Of a stretch of DNA of 64,000 nt, positions 9,422-63,132 are shown in pieces. Origin of the DNA: Tumebacillus algifaecis. Its GTDB lineage: Bacteria > Bacillota > Bacilli > Tumebacillales > Tumebacillaceae. The stretch spans positions 3,705,501 through 3,769,500 of the forward strand of contig NZ_CP022657.1 in the NCBI RefSeq assembly GCF_002243515.1, written 5' to 3'. The notes below the pieces were generated by a model. The model did no database searches and was not told the DNA's origin. It saw only the letters and a list, made by a program, of their open reading frames with translations. The position numbers were made by a program, and so were the translations under genes. Numbering within the stretch: the first letter of the stretch is position 1; each line of letters opens with the position of its first letter.

Positions 9422-9450
9422 TAGATTTAGATTCTCCAAATCTATATAAT
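9422..9450 (+). promoter_or_regulatory. Promoter/operator candidate for the coiled-coil gene
   Basis: A -10 TATAAT (9445-9450) overlaps the end of an inverted repeat TAGATTT (9422-9428) / AAATCTA (9438-9444). No good -35 is seen, which suggests an activator or repressor site. Confidence 0.4.
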
Positions 9451-9524
9451 TGATACAAGCAGCTCTTCTCACCAGATACGTGGACCCCACGGGTCCAACT
9501 TTTCAAAAAGGGGAAGAAAGTCCA

Positions 9525-10214
9525 ATGTCCCACAACAAGTTTAATTTCCGCAAAGAGCTGCCCGCCCTTATGATCGTTCATCACGATGTACGACTATTGA
9601 AGGTTGCCGTCAAAGAACTTAACGACGGTCAAAAAGAACTGCGTCATCACATACAAAAAATCGAAAGCAACCTAAACGAGTTAAGAACTGAAATGGTAGG
9701 TTTCAAAACGGAGATTCGTAATGAAATGCAGGATTTCAAGGCGGAGATTCGCGCAGAAATTGCTGAAGTGCGTGAAGAGATGGCTGAAGTCCGCGCAGAA
9801 GTTGCTGAGGTTCGTGAAGAGATTGCCGAAGTTCGCGAGGAAATTGCTGATATCCGCGAAGAGATTGCCGAAGTTCGCGAGGAGATGGCCGAAGTCCGTG
9901 CAGAAATTTCTGAGGTTCGCCAAGAGATCGTTGAAGTTCGAGCAGAAGTTGCTGAAGTCCGCCAAGAGATCGTTGAAGTTCGAGCAGAAGTTGCTGAAGT
10001 CCGCCAAGAGATCGTTGAAGTTCGAGCAGAAGTTGCTGAAGTCCGCCAAGAGATCGTTGAAGTTCGAGCAGAAATCACCGAAGTCCGCCAAGATATTGTC
10101 CAGATTCGCGCGGAGATGTCCGAGTTCCGAACTGAACTAACAGACTTCCGCAACCAGATTACCTCGACCTTATCCGAGGTATTTGAAGCGATTCGCTCAC
10201 TGGATCGCCGATAA
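9525..10214 (+). CDS. Repetitive long coiled-coil protein (229 aa)
   Basis: A head of about 55 residues (MSHNKFNFRKELPALMIVHHD...) is followed by roughly 20 back-to-back heptads of the form EVRxEIx, almost uninterrupted from residue 65 to 210. This should be a single rod some 20 nm long, with hydrophobic V/I/A at a/d positions and E/R elsewhere. At DNA level 9929-10070 holds more than three near-identical 42-bp units, so copy number may vary. Function unknown. A 7-bp perfect hairpin (9481-9497) sits just before the ribosome site. Confidence 0.85.
   Translation: MSHNKFNFRKELPALMIVHHDVRLLKVAVKELNDGQKELRHHIQKIESNLNELRTEMVGFKTEIRNEMQDFKAEIRAEIAEVREEMAEVRAEVAEVREEIAEVREEIADIREEIAEVREEMAEVRAEISEVRQEIVEVRAEVAEVRQEIVEVRAEVAEVRQEIVEVRAEVAEVRQEIVEVRAEITEVRQDIVQIRAEMSEFRTELTDFRNQITSTLSEVFEAIRSLDRR
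9929..10070 (+). repeat. 42-bp tandem repeat inside coiled-coil gene
   Basis: More than three nearly perfect copies of a 42-base unit encoding two heptads (VEVRAEVAEVRQEI). Codon usage is the same in each copy, which points to recent duplication. Confidence 0.8.
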
Positions 10215-23148: not shown

Positions 23149-23262
23149 CCACCTACGCCACCCTTATCATAAAGTCTTTTCCCCAGTATCGCAGACATGA
23201 TATTCTTTTGCCAAATTCGCACACTCTATTGTTAGCGCTTGGAACAGAAAGGAGCCGATCGC

Positions 23263-24405
23263 ATGCTGATTTTCGAACTCGCCATCATCTTGGTTGCAAC
23301 AAAACTGGCTGGCGACCTGGCCGTACGGCTCGGCCAACCTTCCGTCTTAGGTAAACTGCTGATCGGTCTGCTCCTCGGTCCTTCCCTGCTCGGACTGATT
23401 GAAAACACCGAGGTGTTACATGAGCTCTCACAAATCGGTGTCATCCTGCTGATGTTCATCGCCGGCTTGGAGACCGATGTCCAAGAATTCAAACGATCAG
23501 GCAAAGCAGGCTCTCTGGTTGGATTCGGTGGGATCATCGCACCGCTTGGCATCGGGTACCTGTGTGGCTACCTCCTCGGCTTGGACACACTGCCCTCCAT
23601 TTTTCTCGGACTGCTCCTGTCCGCGACGAGCGTATCGATCACCGTGCAGTCCCTACGTGAGATGGGCCGTCTCAATTCCCGTGAAGGCACGACTCTGATG
23701 AGCGCTGCCGTCATTGATGACGTGGTGGTGGTCATCCTGCTCGCCTTCTTGCTCAGCTTTGCTGGCGGCGATGTCAACCTACCGCTATTGCTCGGCAAAA
23801 AAGCTGCGTTCTTCCTGATCTCCATCCTCGTCGGCTGGAAAGTGGTGCCGTGGCTGTTGCAAAAAATAACATCATTGCGCGTCACCGAGCCTGTGGTCAC
23901 GATCGGAATTTCACTTTGCTTCCTCTTTGCTTGGTTTGCAGAAACCACCGGAGTGGCGGCGATCATCGGCGCCTACATCGCGGGCGTTTCCATCGGGCAA
24001 TCCAAGCAAAAGCAAGAAGTGATGCACAAAACGGAAACGATCGCCTACGCGTTCTTCGTCCCGGTCTTCTTCACTTCGATTGGCGTGATGACCGACGTGC
24101 AAGGCATCGGTAACAACTGGTGGCTTGCCGTAGTGCTCAGTATCGTCGCTGTGCTGACCAAATGGGTCGGCTCTGGCTTAGGTGCGAAGCTGGCCGGTTT
24201 CTCCACCCGCAGTTCGCTCGCCGTCGGGGCCGGTATGGTCTCGCGGGGCGAAGTAGCACTGATCATCGCAGCCATCGGGTTGGAAGCGAACCTGCTCGAC
24301 AAATCGCTGTTTGCGGTACTCGTGGTCGTCGTGCTGGTTACGACCGTCGTGACCCCGCCTTTGTTGAAACTAACCTTTCCCAAACATGAGAAAAAGGCCC
24401 CCTGA
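23263..24405 (+). CDS. Kef-type cation/proton antiporter (CPA2)
   Basis: 380 aa, about 12-13 hydrophobic segments. CPA2 family marks: AGLETDVQEFKRSGKAGSLVG, AVIDDVVVVILLAF with the paired acidic residue, and GMVSRGEVALIIA. It exchanges Na+ or K+ for H+ and has no C-terminal TrkA domain. ATG at 23263 has AAAGGAG 10 bases upstream. Its TGA (24403-24405) lies in what was the loop of its terminator, which is now split by the mobile block starting at 24410. Confidence 0.9.
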   Translation: MLIFELAIILVATKLAGDLAVRLGQPSVLGKLLIGLLLGPSLLGLIENTEVLHELSQIGVILLMFIAGLETDVQEFKRSGKAGSLVGFGGIIAPLGIGYLCGYLLGLDTLPSIFLGLLLSATSVSITVQSLREMGRLNSREGTTLMSAAVIDDVVVVILLAFLLSFAGGDVNLPLLLGKKAAFFLISILVGWKVVPWLLQKITSLRVTEPVVTIGISLCFLFAWFAETTGVAAIIGAYIAGVSIGQSKQKQEVMHKTETIAYAFFVPVFFTSIGVMTDVQGIGNNWWLAVVLSIVAVLTKWVGSGLGAKLAGFSTRSSLAVGAGMVSRGEVALIIAAIGLEANLLDKSLFAVLVVVVLVTTVVTPPLLKLTFPKHEKKAP

Positions 24406-24409
24406 GCAG
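24402..24409 (+). repeat. 8-bp target duplication, left copy
   Basis: CTGAGCAG, repeated exactly at 27859-27866. The element's outer inverted repeats AGAGCACTG (24410-24418) and CAGTGCTCT (27850-27858) abut the two copies. Confidence 0.85.
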
Positions 24410-26005
24410 AGAGCACTGTAAAAAGGCTCATAAAAAATGGAAACAGCACCCACACGGGTGCTGTTTGCTTTATAATGGAACTATTCTAATCTACTGAGGT
24501 TGAGTTTCTATATTACATTCCAGTAAACAAACGAAAGCTTCGTTTCACGCAGAACTTTATCATTTGATCCCATCAGATCATTTATTACGTAAGATTAACG
24601 ATGTTGTTGATTTTGACTTTATTCATTCACTCGTCGAAGACTCCTACTGTTTGTACTACGGCCGTCCGGCGAATGAACCGGAACTGCTGTTTCGATTGCT
24701 TTTCCTTCAGTTCCTTTATAATCTTTCGGACGAACGCGTCATCCAAGAGGCTCAGGTCAACTTGGCATATAAATGGTTCATCGGCCTCAATCCGGAAGAT
24801 CAACTTTCTCGTTTTCGAAATCACCGCTTAGGAGCTAACCGCGTTGAGCGAGTTCTCTTTGAGTTGGTTCGCCAATGCGTCGACCAAAAGTTGATTCAAT
24901 CAAAAGTCTTATTGATCGGTTCAACTCATACATTTGCCAACACACAAAAACAAGACGCACTCAATGTACTAAAAGACGCGGCGAAACGTCTTCACCGTTC
25001 TGTGACCAAAAAACATCCTAAGCTAGACAAAAGGCTTCCCAAACTCCCAAAACCTTCTGGTGAAAGTCGTAGAAGAATTGCTGCCTGACGCAGAGGGAGC
25101 CATCCGAGAAAAGTTGGACTTTGCAAAACGTATCGTCGCAGACGAAAGGTTGCTTGCAAGAAAGGGAATCATGTCTGCCATAGATCCCGATGCAAGATTC
25201 GTTGGAAATCCAGCACCAAGTCGTTTTTCGGATACAAAGAACACATCGCCATGACTGAGGAAGAGATTATTACAGCTATTGAAGTAACGGGTGGTTCGTC
25301 TGACGACGGCAAACTTTTACCGAACTTGCTCGAGAGCACACAAACAACAGGAATACAAGTTGAAGAGGTTTTAGCGGATACTGCCTACTCCGGCAGCACG
25401 AATCTCAAACTGTTGCAAGAGCAGAACATCACAGCTACAATCCCACTTAATCCGTCGGTCTACTCATCTCGCAGCCAAGGCGATGGTTTTCTCTATGTCA
25501 AAGACGCAGACGCTGTTCAATGTCCAGCCGGACATTTGAGTGTTCGCAAATCCCGACAGGGCAAGAAGAATGTCGGTACAAATCAGGTAATGGTTTATTA
25601 CTTTGATGTAGAGAAGTGCAAAACTTGTCCTTTGCGGGATGGTTGCTACAATCCGGGAGCTAGGACAAAGACTTATTCCATTCGTCTGATCTCTAAGCAT
25701 CATGAACAGCAGATGAAATATGAGCAAACTTCTCTGTTTCAAATGCGAAAGCGGCGCCGCTCGAATATTGAGCACAAAAATGCCGAACTGAAAATTTATC
25801 ATGGGATGACCAGGGCCAGATACCGAGGTCTCTTCGGCATGAAGATTCAAGCTTACCTTACGGCTTTCGCCGTGAATGCGAAAAGGATGACGCGGCTTCA
25901 AGACCAGAAAAAGGCGAGCCTCCTAAGTGGAAGCTCGCCTTTTTCTGGTCAAAATTCATCCTCGCCCTAGTTGAGCTCTCCACAAAGTCACTTTTGCAGT
26001 GCTCT
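24410..26005 (+). mobile_element. IS1182-family insertion sequence, full length (1596 bp)
   Basis: Ends AGAGCACTG and CAGTGCTCT. A hairpin AAACAGCACCC / GGGTGCTGTTT (24441-24466) near the left end blocks incoming transcription, and a terminator (about 25912-25947, GGCGAGC / GCTCGCC) follows the transposase. Its own right flank (CCTGAGGG) does not match its left flank, so this copy alone has no target duplication. Confidence 0.8.
24534..25970 (+). pseudogene. IS1182-family transposase, inactivated
   Basis: Three lesions are visible. The first DDE Asp is Gly (LLIGSTHTFAN instead of xxIDSTH). A short in-frame deletion removes the segment between PEDQL and SRFRNHRLG. Two frameshifts occur, near 25070 and 25200, before the C-terminal part restarts in frame (MTEEEIITAIEVTGGSSDDGK...). 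Intact family landmarks remain: GRPANEPELLFRLL, QLPxx..FRNHRLG, CKTCPLRDGCY, RRSNIEHKNAELK. The element cannot move without a helper. Confidence 0.85.
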
Positions 26006-26027
26006 CCTGAGGGAGTCGCTTTTTTTC

Positions 26028-26126
26028 TTAGTAGCAGACAAATGCGCAAGAATCTTGCGTAACGCCCGGTCGCAGTTGCGGGGTGTTGAATTGCACAACT
26101 TGAACATCCAGATCAAAATTTTCCAT
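26028..26126 (-). CDS. FDLD-leader Cys peptide 9 (32 aa)
   Basis: Begins MENFDLDVQVVQFNTPQ and ends TQDSCAFVCY. Last and shortest gene of the second sub-operon. GAAAGGAG precedes the ATG by about 9 bases. Shares the leader FDLDVQ and core SCxxxC with its eight neighbours. Probably a ribosomal-peptide precursor whose Thr/Ser and two Cys could form thioether rings; no maturation enzyme is nearby. Confidence 0.75.
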   Translation of the reverse strand: MENFDLDVQVVQFNTPQLRPGVTQDSCAFVCY

Positions 26127-26176
26127 GGGTACGATCTCCTTTCCAGATTCGAATTTTCTAAATTTACAAGCTGTTC

Positions 26177-26299
26177 TTACGCCAGGGTCAGATCTTCCGG
26201 GTAGCAGACGAATGCGCAAGAAGTTTGCGTGATGCCCGGCATTACCTTGGTGGTGGTGATTTGCTCGATTTGAACATCCAGATCGAAGAAGTTTTCCAT
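26177..26299 (-). CDS. FDLD-leader Cys peptide 8 (40 aa)
   Basis: MENFFDLDVQIEQITTTK, then TQTSCAFVCY and a short tail PEDLTLA. AAAGGAG ribosome site about 9 bases before the ATG. The tail is very like that of peptide 4 (YPDLILA), so the two share a recent ancestor although they lie in different sub-operons. Confidence 0.75.
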   Translation of the reverse strand: MENFFDLDVQIEQITTTKVMPGITQTSCAFVCYPEDLTLA

Positions 26300-26335
26300 C
26301 AGAATCGCTCCTTTCTTTTATTTAAACTCGTGAAC

Positions 26336-26446
26336 TTACTCGCAAACGAATGCGCAGGAACCTTCCGCAGTTTCGATCGTGTTCATGACGACATCAGCGG
26401 TGTTCAACTGCGTGATTTGCACATCCAGATCAAAGAAGTTTTCCAT
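26336..26446 (-). CDS. FDLD-leader Cys peptide 7 (36 aa)
   Basis: MENFFDLDVQITQLNTAD ... ETAEGSCAFVCE. AGAGGAG ribosome site. Core SCAFVC is identical to peptides 5, 6, 8 and 9, while the stretch between leader and core differs, as expected for diversifying precursor families. Confidence 0.75.
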   Translation of the reverse strand: MENFFDLDVQITQLNTADVVMNTIETAEGSCAFVCE

Positions 26447-26473
26447 TAGAAAATCTCCTCTCTTGCGTGAGAT

Positions 26474-26581
26474 TTAGACAGCATCGCAAACAAATGCGCA
26501 AGACGTGTTATCACCAGTCGGTCTGTAGTCGACCACTTGGGTCACGTTCGAGACTTGTACATCGAGATCGAACATTTCCAT
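26474..26581 (-). CDS. FDLD-leader Cys peptide 6 (35 aa)
   Basis: MEMFDLDVQVSNVTQVVDY, then DNTSCAFVCDAV. AAAGGAGG about 8 bases upstream of the ATG. Leader MEMFDLDVQV is shared exactly with peptide 5. Confidence 0.75.
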   Translation of the reverse strand: MEMFDLDVQVSNVTQVVDYRPTGDNTSCAFVCDAV

Positions 26582-26620
26582 CACGATCGCCTCCTTTCTA
26601 TCGGAACAGATTCGAATCTA

Positions 26621-26728
26621 TTAGTACGGTTCGCAAACAAATGCGCAAGAACCAACGGCGGTCCGCACAGCTGCTACTTCTGCGATCGCTTCTTGCTCAA
26701 CTTGCACGTCCAGATCGAACATTTCCAT
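26621..26728 (-). CDS. FDLD-leader Cys peptide 5 (35 aa)
   Basis: MEMFDLDVQVEQEAIAEVAA, then TAVGSCAFVCEPY. AAAGGAGG ribosome site. First gene after the internal promoter at 26769-26796, so it leads the second sub-operon (peptides 5 to 9). Confidence 0.75.
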   Translation of the reverse strand: MEMFDLDVQVEQEAIAEVAAVRTAVGSCAFVCEPY

Positions 26729-26768
26729 TATGATAACCTCCTTTCCTCTTAACTGATTTTCTAATTAA

Positions 26769-26796
26769 AATATAATTCAAAATATTTATTTGTCAA
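26769..26796 (-). promoter_or_regulatory. Internal promoter P2 of the peptide array
   Basis: Minus strand -35 TTGACA (26791-26796), -10 TATATT (26769-26774), spacer 16. The sequence around the -10 (GAATTATATTTT) is the same as in P1, so both are probably controlled alike. Confidence 0.75.
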
Positions 26797-26918
26797 CATT
26801 TGAACTTTACTCACAACGAAAGAACAATACCCCAAACGAAAATACGACAAAAAGCGTGCAAACATCGTACCGCTCAGTACTTTGTCTACACGCTGTTCGC
26901 ATGCAGGAGTTGTCTTTC

Positions 26919-27038
26919 TTACGCCAGGATGAGATCCGGATAGCAGACGTATGCGCAAGTATCTTGCGTTTCGCCCGGCATGATCGCATCGTTGATGACT
27001 TGCTCGATTTGAACATCGAGATCAAAGAACTTTTCCAA
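26919..27038 (-). CDS. FDLD-leader Cys peptide 4 (39 aa, TTG start)
   Basis: Starts at TTG 27038 with AAAGGGG about 8 bases upstream: MEKFFDLDVQIEQVINDA, then TQDTCAYVCYPDLILA. Too short and with a non-ATG start, so easily missed. Thr replaces the Ser before the first Cys, a change that suits dehydration chemistry. Last gene before the 190-bp gap that holds P2. Confidence 0.72.
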   Translation of the reverse strand: MEKFFDLDVQIEQVINDAIMPGETQDTCAYVCYPDLILA

Positions 27039-27052
27039 CACGCGACCCCTTT

Positions 27053-27166
27053 TTAGTACGAATCATCGTTGCAGACTTCCCCGCAAGAATCTGTCGTTTC
27101 GGCGGGCATGATCAATTGGGTATTGATTTGTTCGATCGTCAAATCAAGGTCAAAGAGCTTTTCCAT
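27053..27166 (-). CDS. FDLD-leader Cys peptide 3 (37 aa)
   Basis: MEKLFDLDLTIEQINTQL, then TTDSCGEVCNDDSY. AAAAGGGG ribosome site. The DSCGEVC core recalls the DGCGxTC core of actinobacterial FxLD-family lanthipeptide precursors. Confidence 0.72.
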   Translation of the reverse strand: MEKLFDLDLTIEQINTQLIMPAETTDSCGEVCNDDSY

Positions 27167-27181
27167 CAGCAGACACCCCTT

Positions 27182-27298
27182 TTACAAAGTACCCGTTGGG
27201 TCGCAATGATCGGCACAAGAATCTTGCGTGTCGGTCCTAATAACATCGTTGTTGCTGACGTGCTGGATTTGCAAATCAAGATCAAAAAGCTTTTCCAT
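27182..27298 (-). CDS. FDLD-leader Cys peptide 2 (38 aa)
   Basis: MEKLFDLDLQIQHVSNND, then TQDSCADHCDPTGTL. AAGGGGGG ribosome site. Same CxxxC spacing, with different residues inside the ring-sized gap. Confidence 0.72.
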   Translation of the reverse strand: MEKLFDLDLQIQHVSNNDVIRTDTQDSCADHCDPTGTL

Positions 27299-27318
27299 CA
27301 GGTATTCCCCCCTTCTTA

Positions 27319-27423
27319 CTAAAAGATGTTGCACAAGTAATCGCAACTAATGTAAGAAGTAATGTGTCCCTGTTCCGGGGTTACTTCGATAACTTGAATG
27401 TCAAGATCAAACAGTGTTTCCAT
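27319..27423 (-). CDS. FDLD-leader Cys peptide 1 (34 aa)
   Basis: METLFDLDIQVIEVTPEQG, then ITSYISCDYLCNIF. AAAGGAGGTGA lies before the ATG and is the best ribosome site of the array. The most divergent member, directly after promoter P1. Confidence 0.72.
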   Translation of the reverse strand: METLFDLDIQVIEVTPEQGHITSYISCDYLCNIF

Positions 27424-27470
27424 CGTCGTGTCACCTCCTTTCTAATTTCACATGTTATATTTTAATAAAA

Positions 27471-27499
27471 AATATAATTCATAATAATTGTTGTGTCAA
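27471..27499 (-). promoter_or_regulatory. Promoter P1 of the peptide array
   Basis: Minus strand -35 TTGACA (27494-27499), -10 TATATT (27471-27476), spacer 17, about 50 bases before peptide 1. Confidence 0.75.
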
Positions 27500-27527
27500 G
27501 TTTTACTTTTAGTTAGAAAAATGCGCC

Positions 27528-27858
27528 TATTCCATTCGTCTGATCTCTAAGCATCATGAACAGCAGATGAAATATGAGCAAACTTCTCTGTTTCAAATGC
27601 GAAAGCGGCGCCGCTCGAATATTGAGCACAAAAATGCCGAACTGAAAATTTATCATGGGATGACCAGGGCCAGATACCGTGGTCTCTTCGGCATGAAGAT
27701 TCAAGCTTACCTTACGGCTTTCGCCGTGAATGCGAAAAGGATGACGCGGCTTCAAGACCAGCAAAGGCGAGCCTCCTAAGTGGAAGCTCGCCTTTTTCTG
27801 GTCAAAATTTATCCTCGCCCTAGTTGAGCTCTCCACAAAGTCACTTTTGCAGTGCTCT
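27528..27858 (+). mobile_element. IS1182-type right-end fragment (331 bp)
   Basis: Almost identical to 25674-26005, with one base less in an A-run region and a few substitutions (for example taccgt for taccga). It carries the last part of the transposase frame, the terminator and the right inverted repeat, but no left end. Confidence 0.88.
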
Positions 27859-27866
27859 CTGAGCAG
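27859..27866 (+). repeat. 8-bp target duplication, right copy
   Basis: CTGAGCAG, followed by GGAGCCTTTTT, the 3' half of the interrupted antiporter terminator. Confidence 0.85.
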
Positions 27867-27901: not shown

Positions 27902-29602
27902 CTACAATTTAAACGCACTGACCGAATCTTGCAGTTCGTTTGCCATTTTAGCCAGCATATTCGAAGCGGAAGTGATCTCTTCCATAGAAGCTGTCTGCTC
28001 TTGCACAGTCGCAGCCACCTGTTGCGTGTTGCCAGCCGCTTGATCGGAGAACGATGCGATCGTATCGATCGCCAAGACCAGTTCCTGTGTCCCCGCATTG
28101 ACTTGCTCCACCGCTTCGACGGTGTCTTGCGCCTGTTTCGCCAGCGAGTTGACCGCCGCATGAATGCCACGGAAGGAGTCTCCGGTCAGGTGGATCATCC
28201 GGATGCCTTCATCGAACGATTTAGTCCCTTCATTCATCGAGACGATCGCCACACCAGCATCCGTTTGTACTTCACCGATCAGCGCACGAATATGATCGGC
28301 TGCCGAAGCGGACTGCTCGGCCAGTTTGCGCACTTCGTCTGCAACCACGGCAAAGCCTTTGCCCTGCTCACCTGCGCGCGATGCTTCGATCGCTGCGTTG
28401 AGCGCCAACAGGTTGGTTTGGCCCGCAATGCTTGTGATCAGCGCAACGATTTGTCCGATCTCGTCCGTCTTCTGTCCAAGCTTGTTCAATACTTGCGCGG
28501 TGCTGTGAATCTTCTCCGTGCTCGTTTCCATCTGCTTGATCGTCTTGTCCACCACATCATGCCCGTCTTTCGCGCGCTCCGTCGCCGTGCGCGTCGAATC
28601 GGTCACTGTGGTGATGCCAGATACGATCTGATCGATGTTGACCTTCATCGCGGACACGATCTTCGTCGTGTCGGTCACGCCTTGCAATTGCTTGTCCGCA
28701 CCGCTCGATACTTCCTGTACGGAAGCTGCGATCTGCTCCGCTGCACGGCACGTATGATCTGCTCCAGCCATCAATTGCTCCGAGGTCGAAGCTACCTGTG
28801 CGGAGTTCAAGGATACTTGATGCAGGATTCCGCGCAAGTTGTCCACCATCTTATCAAAGTCTCGGCCGAGGTCACCGATCTCATCGCGGGACTTCATGTT
28901 CAGAGCATCCAGCGTCAAATCACCATCTGCTACTTTCTTCACCTGCGCCGCCAGACGATACACCGGCGCGGTCAACATTCTAGAGATCACGATCACGATC
29001 AGAATGCTCAACACAATCGCTGCGCCCGATAGAATTAACACAAAATTTTTGCCATCATGGTTGATCTCGACCGATCTTTTGGTCGCTGCTGAGCCAGAAT
29101 CTTGATTGATCTGCTTCAGTTTGATCAAATCGGCTGTCGCTTTGTCAAACTCGATCAAGGCTGCAGTATCCGCATTGTTGAATCCTAAGCTATCACGTTC
29201 TTCTGCCGCTTTCAACAGGAGTGGAATTTGCTTTTCAAACGCCGCATAAGAGCTGGCAAACGAATTAAAAAGCGCTACCTCTTCTTCACCTTGGGAGAGT
29301 TCCTTAAACAGAACCATCTTGCTAGTAACTTCTGCTTGGCTGGCCTTGATGGCCTTGATGACCGCTTCGGTCGCTTCGGGCGTCTGCGCCAAGCGCATCC
29401 GCGTCATCAACCGTTGCATGTTGGTGACATTCGCATTAATGTCGCCAGCAATCGCAACACTTGGCAATACATGAGCGTCAATCTCGTTCGCTTGCTTTTC
29501 CATGTTGTCCATTCGCTCGACCGCCACTGCTCCAATTGCGATCAGCAACAATAGGACGAGGAAAAAGCTTACGAATAATTTCATACGTACTGAAAATTTC
29601 AT
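27902..29602 (-). CDS. Methyl-accepting chemotaxis protein
   Basis: 566 aa. TM1 at residues about 8-29, a 160-aa four-helix-bundle extracellular sensor (4HB_MCP type), TM2 about 188-210, then HAMP and a long cytoplasmic signalling domain. The hairpin tip is the highly conserved [46 protein letters not shown]. It passes ligand signals to CheA/CheW. GGGGGAA lies before the ATG. The neighbouring MCP (29793) is a paralogue in the same direction. Confidence 0.93.
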
Positions 29603-61686: not shown

Positions 61687-63132
61687 TCATGCTTCCGGAA
61701 TCATTTCGATGGCAAGCGGCGGTTGGCCACCGCGCAGGCCGACGATGTAGATCGTGTAGGTGATATTCGGGTCGAAACGCATTTTTGGCAGGCGCAGGAC
61801 CACATCCTTCTTGCCTGCCAGACGCAGCTCGAGATCGCGGCGGCCAGGGGCGACTTGGAGATACGGCGATTTTTCTTTGTAGGTCAAATGCCCGATCAAC
61901 ACTTTTCCGGAGACCAGCCCGACATCGACCGCCGGAGTGTTCGGAGAGAGGTGGACAAATTTGACTCGGGCAAAACCCGGTTTGGTTTTCTTCGGCTCAT
62001 CCTCAATGATAATCGGGCGGACATTTTTAAAATAGTCGGCGATCACGATCGAATAGGATTGATTCGGTTTGGCATTGAAGGTGGTATCGATCAGGGCCCC
62101 CACCTGTTTGCCATAGGGAAAAACCTGCACGCGGTGCCGTCCCGGTGTCAGGGGAAAATAGTTGCTGATTCCTTCAAAATCGACGTCTTCCGCCACCTTT
62201 TTGCCATCGACGACAATATCGACGCCAGGGGTATCGGGTGAGGCGTGGAAAAAGCGGACGCGGGCCTTGGCGACCGGAGGGGTGGCCGGTTTGACGACGG
62301 GGACCGCCTCGATATCCACCAGTTCCGCGACCGGGATTCCTTGTTCCACGAGCGGAATCGGAATCACATCACCATCCCCGGTCATCATCGGCACAGCCTC
62401 CGTGATGACCCCGCTTTGCGGGAGCGAGCTGCTCGGCTGGTACACGCCTCCTAGTGGCATCGTTCCGCTCGGCTGGTACACTCCTCCTTGCGGGATCGTT
62501 CCACTCGGCTGATATAGCACCCCACCTTGTGGGATCGTTCCACTCGGCTGGTATAGCACTCCTCCTTGTGGCAACGTTCCGCTCGGCTGATACACTCCTC
62601 CTTGTGGCAACGTTCCACTCGGCTGGTATACCCCTCCTTGTGGCAACGTTCCGCTTGGCTGATACACTCCTCCTTGTGGCAACGTTCCACTCGGCTGGTA
62701 TCCCCCTCCTTGTGGCAACGTTCCGCTCGGCTGATACACTCCTCCTTGCGGCATCGTTCCACTCGGCTGGTATACCCCTCCTTGCGGCATCGTTCCACTC
62801 GGCTGGTATACCCCTCCTTGCGGGATCATTCCGCTCGGCTTTTGACTCTTATTTGCATCACCAGCGCCGAGATGGCCTGGCGTCATCATCTGTCCTTGAA
62901 ACTGGGTGTTCAACTGCTTCAGCACTTCATCAAGCATCCCTTGCAACTGATCTTGCGTACCGGCACGCGTGATCAAGGAGCTTACATCCTCATGCTGCTC
63001 TTGTAGCAAGCGGCACGCTTCCTGCATAAAGTCATACTGGTTTTGCTGGCTCTCCTGCACCAAATGAACCAACTTTTCAACCTCACGAGCCAATTGCTCA
63101 TACGCAACAAGCTGTTGTTCCTCTCTGTTCAA
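61687..63132 (-). CDS. Repeat-rich DUF4397 protein (481 aa)
   Basis: Helical head (1-80), then about 12 copies of a 12-residue unit PSGTxPQGGVYQ (about 98-245), a Val-rich linker, and two DUF4397 modules (ARVRFFHASPDTPGVDIVVDGKKV and FARVKFVHLSPNTPAVDVGL, about 285-475). No signal peptide. TTG start with GAGGAGG 8 bases before it. DUF4397 occurs in spore- and surface-associated proteins; actual role unknown. The Pro/Gly/Gln repeats should be unfolded and may be a flexible spacer. Confidence 0.8.
   Translation of the reverse strand: MNREEQQLVAYEQLAREVEKLVHLVQESQQNQYDFMQEACRLLQEQHEDVSSLITRAGTQDQLQGMLDEVLKQLNTQFQGQMMTPGHLGAGDANKSQKPSGMIPQGGVYQPSGTMPQGGVYQPSGTMPQGGVYQPSGTLPQGGGYQPSGTLPQGGVYQPSGTLPQGGVYQPSGTLPQGGVYQPSGTLPQGGVLYQPSGTIPQGGVLYQPSGTIPQGGVYQPSGTMPLGGVYQPSSSLPQSGVITEAVPMMTGDGDVIPIPLVEQGIPVAELVDIEAVPVVKPATPPVAKARVRFFHASPDTPGVDIVVDGKKVAEDVDFEGISNYFPLTPGRHRVQVFPYGKQVGALIDTTFNAKPNQSYSIVIADYFKNVRPIIIEDEPKKTKPGFARVKFVHLSPNTPAVDVGLVSGKVLIGHLTYKEKSPYLQVAPGRRDLELRLAGKKDVVLRLPKMRFDPNITYTIYIVGLRGGQPPLAIEMIPEA
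62418..62840 (-). repeat. 36-bp tandem repeats inside DUF4397 gene
   Basis: About 12 units coding PSGTxPQGGVYQ with synonymous and a few replacement changes; two copies have an extra Leu codon (GGVLYQ). Confidence 0.85.

Follow-up and report, generated by a model that had tools for sequence, protein, structure and literature searches.

The window, that is, the whole stretch of 64,000 nucleotides of Tumebacillus algifaecis DNA that was analysed, contains nine open reading frames of 32-40 aa, all on the minus strand, at positions 26028-27423 (Table 1). When the nine peptides are aligned, F-D-L-D and C-x3-C are the invariant columns (9/9), and a Ser or Thr residue always precedes the first Cys. 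Each start follows a purine-rich ribosome site of the AGGAG/GGGG type, and the start codon is ATG in eight genes and GTG in the remaining one (26919-27041). These observations bear out the preliminary description, which had reported nine same-strand genes of 32-40 codons, each with its ribosome site, and an invariant (S/T)CxxxC motif. The leader it proposed, ME-x-(F)FDLD(V/L/I)Q, is valid for the FDLD in all nine peptides but not in its strict form, because one peptide has FDLDLT and another begins with a GTG-coded M-LEK. Two promoter-like sites, each with 11/12 consensus matches, suggest that peptides 1-4 and 5-9 form two operons; five such sites were found versus 3.0 expected from shuffles, and a sequence similar to the first site also lies upstream of the array in the congener G006. 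Elsewhere in the window, two proteins unrelated to the array are repetitive: one (9450-10214) has many near-identical EVREEIAEVRAE-like coiled-coil repeats, and the other (61687-63132) carries the motif YQPSGTxPQGGV about ten times within the N-terminal half.

Table 1. Coordinates of the array, its signals and the insert that carries it (window positions)
Feature	Position	Strand	Remark
8-bp repeat CTGAGCAG, left target duplication	24402..24409		loop of terminator hairpin
Insertion sequence, longer copy	24410..26005	+	inverted ends AGAGCACTGtAAAA / AGAGCACTGcAAAA
Transposase N-terminal part, DUF772	24564..25088	+	
Transposase C-terminal part, DDE_Tnp_1_6	25251..25970	+	
Cargo homologous to the G006 array locus	26004..27528		starts within the terminator of that locus, CTGAGGGAGTCGCTTTTTTT
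Precursor peptide 9, MENFDLDVQVVQFNTPQLRPGVTQDSCAFVCY	26028..26126	-	counterparts in G006 and G005
Precursor peptide 8, FDLDVQ...GITQTSCAFVC	26177..26299	-	NF038155, 23.9 bits (cut-off 20)
Precursor peptide 7	26336..26446	-	
Precursor peptide 6	26474..26581	-	ATG at 26581, GTG one codon upstream; without G006 counterpart
Precursor peptide 5	26621..26728	-	NF038155, 25.3 bits (cut-off 20)
Promoter-like TTGACA-16-TATATT, upstream of peptides 5-9	26769..26796	-	consensus match only
Precursor peptide 4	26919..27041	-	GTG start
Precursor peptide 3	27053..27166	-	identical protein in G006
Precursor peptide 2	27182..27298	-	
Precursor peptide 1, first array gene	27319..27423	-	
Promoter-like TTGACA-17-TATATT, upstream of peptides 1-4	27471..27499	-	consensus match only
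Truncated IS copy, 3' end	27528..27858	+	supplies the right inverted end
8-bp repeat CTGAGCAG, right copy	27859..27866		

The array is enclosed in an insert made up of an IS, the array and an IS 3' end, 3457 bp long when one target copy is counted. The bounds 26028-27423 given earlier are correct for the genes, but the flanking IS copies had been missed, and with them the location of the array inside a transposon-like insert. A 333-bp IS 3' end is present at 25674-26006 and again at 27528-27859 with 99% identity; no other full-length match to it was found in the genome, where two 48-49-bp inverted matches lie inside the same copies. The stretch homologous to G006 (26004-27528) fills exactly the gap between the two IS copies. 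The antiporter (23239-24405) and chemoreceptor (27902-29602) genes that flank the insert are neighbours in both congeners, G006 and G005, and the site is empty in 2/2 of them: in each, the alignment breaks off and continues 27 bases further on, across the terminator hairpin. Hence, some features of a composite transposon are present (inverted outer ends, a duplicated target and, in relatives, an empty site), whereas others are absent, namely a second complete IS, the right copy being a 0.33-kb 3' end, and an intact transposase, whose reading frame is interrupted between the DUF772 and DDE_Tnp_1_6 parts. On its inner side, the longer IS copy borders directly on the second half of a terminator. 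In G006 this terminator separates the permease gene of the hem locus from the array, so that the insertion in the donor probably used the same kind of target, a terminator. A search of 60 other genomes, with five candidates scored per genome, gave no high-identity copy of the IS; G005 and the same-class genome G034 have pieces of it at 65-74% identity, and G004 has a 40-base stretch. The array sequence had no match among 72,556 plasmid records.

A profile built from the nine peptides and searched against their own 4.5-Mb genome hit 24 places at E < 0.01, all in FDLD frames. The array members had E-values of at most 2.5e-15, which follows in part from their use in the profile. A second array, which is outside the training set of the profile, gave values down to 5.9e-16; on these sequence comparisons, the array is not a product of chance. 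The preliminary description had advised a run against RiPP precursor models, along with genome searches for lanB/lanC, YcaO and radical SAM genes and for further ME-x-FDLD genes. Of the nine peptides, two exceed the 20-bit cut-off of the NCBIfam model NF038155, "FDLD family class I lanthipeptide" (25.3 and 23.9 bits), five score 15.8-18.7 bits and two are unreported. None of them reaches a Pfam cut-off, and three have weak PKHD_C matches below it.

The search for further precursors was productive, as the genome encodes 14 more intact FDLD peptides with Cys. Eight belong to the second array, situated at the hem locus (L026, 8966-10986), which includes a ninth copy with an internal stop; two, divergently transcribed, stand beside lanB (L024), with an FDLDVQ/FDLDVQM leader and SCxxxC (one reads MENMFDLDVQ...NTSCINGC and the other ends in ...SPSCGRTC); and L027 and L029 contribute two each. 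One further match, in L028, is without Cys. The total is therefore 9 + 8 + 2 + 2 + 2 = 23 intact FDLD/Cys peptides at five loci, and (S/T)CxxxC is present in 19/23. The pair in L027 (8957-9866) has the core W-S/T-x-x-C-F-R-S and that in L029 (9365-10244) a C-x2-C core; both are orphans, distant from the only LanC of the genome. The hem-locus array seems to grow and decay through tandem duplication; the copy with the internal stop is at L026 9229-9327, and L026 9333-9584 is a second stretch that matches the terminal part of the permease gene region and is 86.5% identical to G006. A protein of 141-143 aa adjoins the hem-locus array in three species (L066 10294-10725, L067 8817-9248 and L026 11128-11553); the L066 protein, the one copy scanned, gave no Pfam match.

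The enzymes lie far from the array; for class I lanthipeptide precursors of the FDLD kind, having them next door is the usual arrangement but not a defining trait. The host genome is one 4.52-Mb contig, with the array at 3.73 Mb and a single complete lanB-lanT-lanC set at 1.49 Mb, about 2.2 Mb away, which agrees with the earlier expectation that lanB and lanC would be found elsewhere and act in trans. LanB is 1064 aa long and matches PF04738 (~660 bits) and PF14028 over their length; after it come a 624-aa ABC transporter and then a 452-aa LanC that keeps the motifs GLSHG, WCYG and CHG, listed as LanC motifs in PMC3337247. The NCBIfam matches shown for the transporter, of which MsbA is the best, all fall below the cut-offs of their models; because of its position beside lanB, the transporter is a candidate exporter. 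LANC_like (PF05147) occurs at one place in the genome, the stand-alone LanC beside lanB. PF04738 proteins are two, the weaker one being part of a YcaO/ThiF-type cluster that has no LanC. In the 20 kb around lanB, neither a leader protease nor an immunity gene was recognised. The YcaO search returned two genes, one in the cluster at 2.64-2.65 Mb and another at 3.90 Mb, while that for a radical SAM maturase gave no SPASM protein in the genome, the same search being positive in 8/14 control genomes. The cluster (L025, 1220-11540) combines a split lantibiotic dehydratase with YcaO and ThiF-like proteins and is of thiopeptide or thiazole type; NRPS-like genes are nearby, as judged by eye.

Further information on the partnership between these peptides and LanB comes from the relatives. 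The congeners G005 and G006 also possess such arrays, which largely agree with the window array in their members and in gene order. FDLD/FELD peptides adjoin LanB of this type in 5/5 relatives having it: arrays directly flank lanB in G001, G002 and G004, and one peptide is near lanB in G005 and six in G006. FDLD peptides and LANC_like occur in the same 6/14 genomes of the order, the other eight having neither, and in the family LanB is found in the same 6/7 genomes as the peptides, G003 lacking both. By simple counting, the 6-of-14 match corresponds to 1 in 3003 assignments, with independence limited, as all six genomes belong to one family. Scanning the named genomes with a single LanB sequence gave no matches; the relatives were found with the LanB alignment A2. 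Among the best 80 of 562 LanB relatives, a short F-x-LD ORF with Cys is present at 58 loci and absent at 22, with a crude filter that also admits chance ORFs, and FDLD precursors occur just upstream of lanB in several Paenibacillus, Brevibacillus, Geobacillus and others. In the host, about 23 substrates probably share one LanBTC set, and 21 of them are encoded away from it. Next to the FDLD peptides on the lanB side, G006 and G005 encode small proteins (L071 13420-13845, L071 15958-16377 and L072 8206-8628); the two that were scanned, L071 13420-13845 and L072 8206-8628, match DUF4362, and these proteins might have an immunity or accessory role.

The spacing of Ser and Thr residues around the Cys pair was analysed on an alignment of 30 related peptides (A3), in which paralogues and orthologues are mixed, so that the shuffles do not amount to a significance test. 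Ser/Thr occupies position -1 of the first Cys in 30/30 peptides (shuffle mean 6.6; 0/2000 shuffles reach 30) and position -4 or -5 in 29/30 (shuffle mean 9.8; 0/2000 reach 29), unlike positions -2, -3, -6, -7 and -8, which have no Ser/Thr excess. The spacing itself is specific. In the window, position -1 is Ser/Thr in 9/9 peptides and -4/-5 in 8/9, the remaining one having it at -6 (and -2). The second lanB-side precursor, outside the A3 count, has Ser at -1 and -3 and none at -4/-5. Because Ser at -1 is poorly placed to form a ring with the first Cys, it would pair with the second one (i to i+5), and we infer two overlapping thioether rings, joining the first Cys to the residue at -4/-5 and the second Cys to that at -1. 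The ring pattern suggested earlier (Ser to the second Cys, an upstream Thr/Ser to the first) thus fits the spacing in the 30 peptides. The idea of hypervariable, diversifying cores was discarded, as the counterpart cores are mostly conserved across three species.

Divergence data bear on the origin of the array. Eight of its nine genes have a G006 counterpart, and these pairs (291 codons) differ by 8.8 synonymous and 32.2 nonsynonymous changes, with a dS of 0.050; this number of changes is too small for a claim of positive selection on the array. For the five genes common to all three species, dS between the window and G006 is 0.063 (bootstrap 0.025-0.116), versus 0.200 for the window and G005 and 0.189 for G006 and G005. 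Between the host and G006, dS is 0.70-1.32 for 11 hem-locus genes and 1.17, 1.05 and 1.34 for lanB, lanT and lanC, respectively. The intergenic DNA of the array is identical to that of G006 at 146/154 and 76/84 positions (26004-26600 and 26880-27320). This dS pattern points to a donor that was a close relative of G006, after the split from G005, and to a resident LanBTC set; relocation of a resident array within the genome is ruled out by dS. By sequence comparison, the array is a recent acquisition that came without enzymes, as IS-flanked cargo, from a donor near the congener with the hem-locus array. Concerning selection, dN/dS of the four three-way orthologues other than peptide 1 is ~0.25 (G006) and ~0.43 (G005); with peptide 1, which may be paired with a non-orthologous gene, it is 0.89 and 0.66 for five genes, and 0.97 over the eight G006 pairs, values that do not clearly indicate purifying selection, and dN drops from 0.056 to 0.014 once peptide 1 is removed. 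Such values are compatible with selection on the peptides, of which they give a faint hint.

The nine genes very probably encode raw material for lanthipeptides, and their assignment to class I precursors with enzymes acting in trans is well supported. To the whole explanation, namely class I precursors matured by the distant LanBTC set and recently acquired, enzyme-less, on an IS element, we assign a probability of about 0.82. Worded as a mechanism, the FDLD leader would bind to the LanB of the host, encoded about 2.2 Mb from the array, and this enzyme would dehydrate the Ser/Thr residues at -1 and -4/-5 of the first Cys; LanC would join the first Cys to -4/-5 and the second Cys to -1, so that two (methyl)lanthionine rings overlap. 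Export would fall to the ABC transporter encoded next to lanB, and a housekeeping protease would cut off the leader. Sequence comparison shows that the IS-flanked element inserted into the terminator hairpin, bringing the array from a donor close to the congener, and that the nine arrivals were added to the 14 other intact FDLD/Cys precursors.

The peptides could instead be genuine precursors by descent that are silent or decaying IS cargo, unused in this host. The recent date of the insert and the interrupted transposase frame are in line with this possibility, and members of such arrays can decay, as the hem-locus copy with an internal stop illustrates; however, none of the nine frames or ribosome sites is damaged, promoter-like TTGACA/TATATT sites stand upstream at two places, and the dN/dS of ~0.25-0.43 for four orthologues, part of which may be older than the transfer, also speaks against disuse, so that we hold silence to be unlikely. 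That the enzymes in question are rather the YcaO/split-LanB cluster at 2.64-2.65 Mb, or the product of the YcaO gene at 3.90 Mb, is a far less probable option: the 20 kb around the cluster are without any FDLD/FELD leader-like peptide and contain two chance-looking F-x-LD ORFs only, the identical leader type and SCxxxC are found beside LanBTC, and the genome has no SPASM protein, against which can be set the two YcaO genes, the second PF04738 protein and one cluster protein that matches the ocin_ThiF-like model below its curated cut-off.

The failure of all nine peptides to reach a Pfam cut-off would also suit small structural or regulatory peptides that stay unmodified and have no more than a likeness to lanthipeptide leaders, yet their co-occurrence with LanC in 6/6 genomes and the spacing of the ring partners leave this proposal hardly credible. 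Lastly, without any horizontal transfer, the array could be an old copy that has gained synonymous changes at an unusually low rate. Its dS between G006 and G005 (0.19) is indeed lower than that of five flanking genes (0.34-0.62), indicating some constraint or exchange, but a two- to threefold slowing cannot bring ~1.0 down to 0.06; in addition, the resident hem-locus array of the host is clearly different, the sites are empty in the congeners and bordered by target repeats in the host, and the intergenic DNA is 90-95% identical to that of G006 in the two stretches compared, all of which makes an origin without transfer very improbable.

If the array is a recently acquired set of class I precursors, it may exemplify a prochlorosin-like strategy among the Bacillota, in which IS-borne, enzyme-less arrays cross species and the compatible LanBTC set of the recipient matures them; we see about an even chance that this generalisation holds. 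Were it true, the substrate repertoire and the enzymes would evolve as separate units. This genome gained substrates alone, nine of them, by transfer. It thereby allows a test of whether the leader by itself is enough for class I enzymes to take on cores that are new to them, and the array set offers a natural library of presumed two-ring scaffolds. Moreover, RiPP surveys look near the enzymes and miss arrays of this kind: that of Walker et al. (2020, PMC7268733) searched only within seven genes on either side of lanC, which puts enzyme-less arrays beyond its reach.

Class I lanthipeptides with FDLD leaders are already known (NF038155), and the array, which the preliminary description had put forward as a candidate new RiPP precursor array, is not a new RiPP class. 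A class I cluster with 10 distinct precursors was described in Tumebacillus flagellatus as a notable exception (Walker et al. 2020, PMC7268733). This bacterium resembles the host in family, in class I and in the many precursors per LanBC, and its FDLD peptide array is upstream of lanB (L070 and L081). The two systems differ in that the T. flagellatus array adjoins lanB and many of its cores are CxC, whereas the present one is enzyme-less, 2.2 Mb off, SCxxxC-bearing and IS-flanked. The elgicins of Paenibacillus elgii B69 also have an FDLD leader, and the cluster as given in PMC3337247 consists of lanB, lanC and transporter genes without lanP; the LanB of P. elgii NBRC 100335, among the best 80 of 562 relatives, is 46% identical over the best segment. 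Elgicins come from a 64-aa, many-Cys precursor beside lanB and have demonstrated antibacterial activity (PMC3337247), whereas the array is known from its sequence. The leader type is shared as well by maddinglicin. The structure of its class I dehydratase, MadB, was determined together with the leader, part of which is reported to be crucial for binding, and the FDLD motif contacts MadB arginines; the system comes from Clostridium and has one precursor in that work (PMC12241602).

Enzyme-less or transposon-borne class I precursor arrays were not found described in a literature search that had subscription journals mostly outside its range; what is new here is the enzyme-less, mobile array, the kind itself being known. 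Prochlorosins, the class II products of LanM in cyanobacteria, are made from precursors with Nif11 leaders, many of which are encoded far from the enzyme. The array is like them in that one enzyme faces many precursors, many of them distant, and it differs in relying on class I LanB/LanC and FDLD leaders, the only LANC_like protein of the genome being the stand-alone LanC. The dispersed precursors and single enzyme of the prochlorosins were pointed out by Walker et al. (PMC7268733), and the LanBTC set of this genome may work in the same way without being a prochlorosin system.
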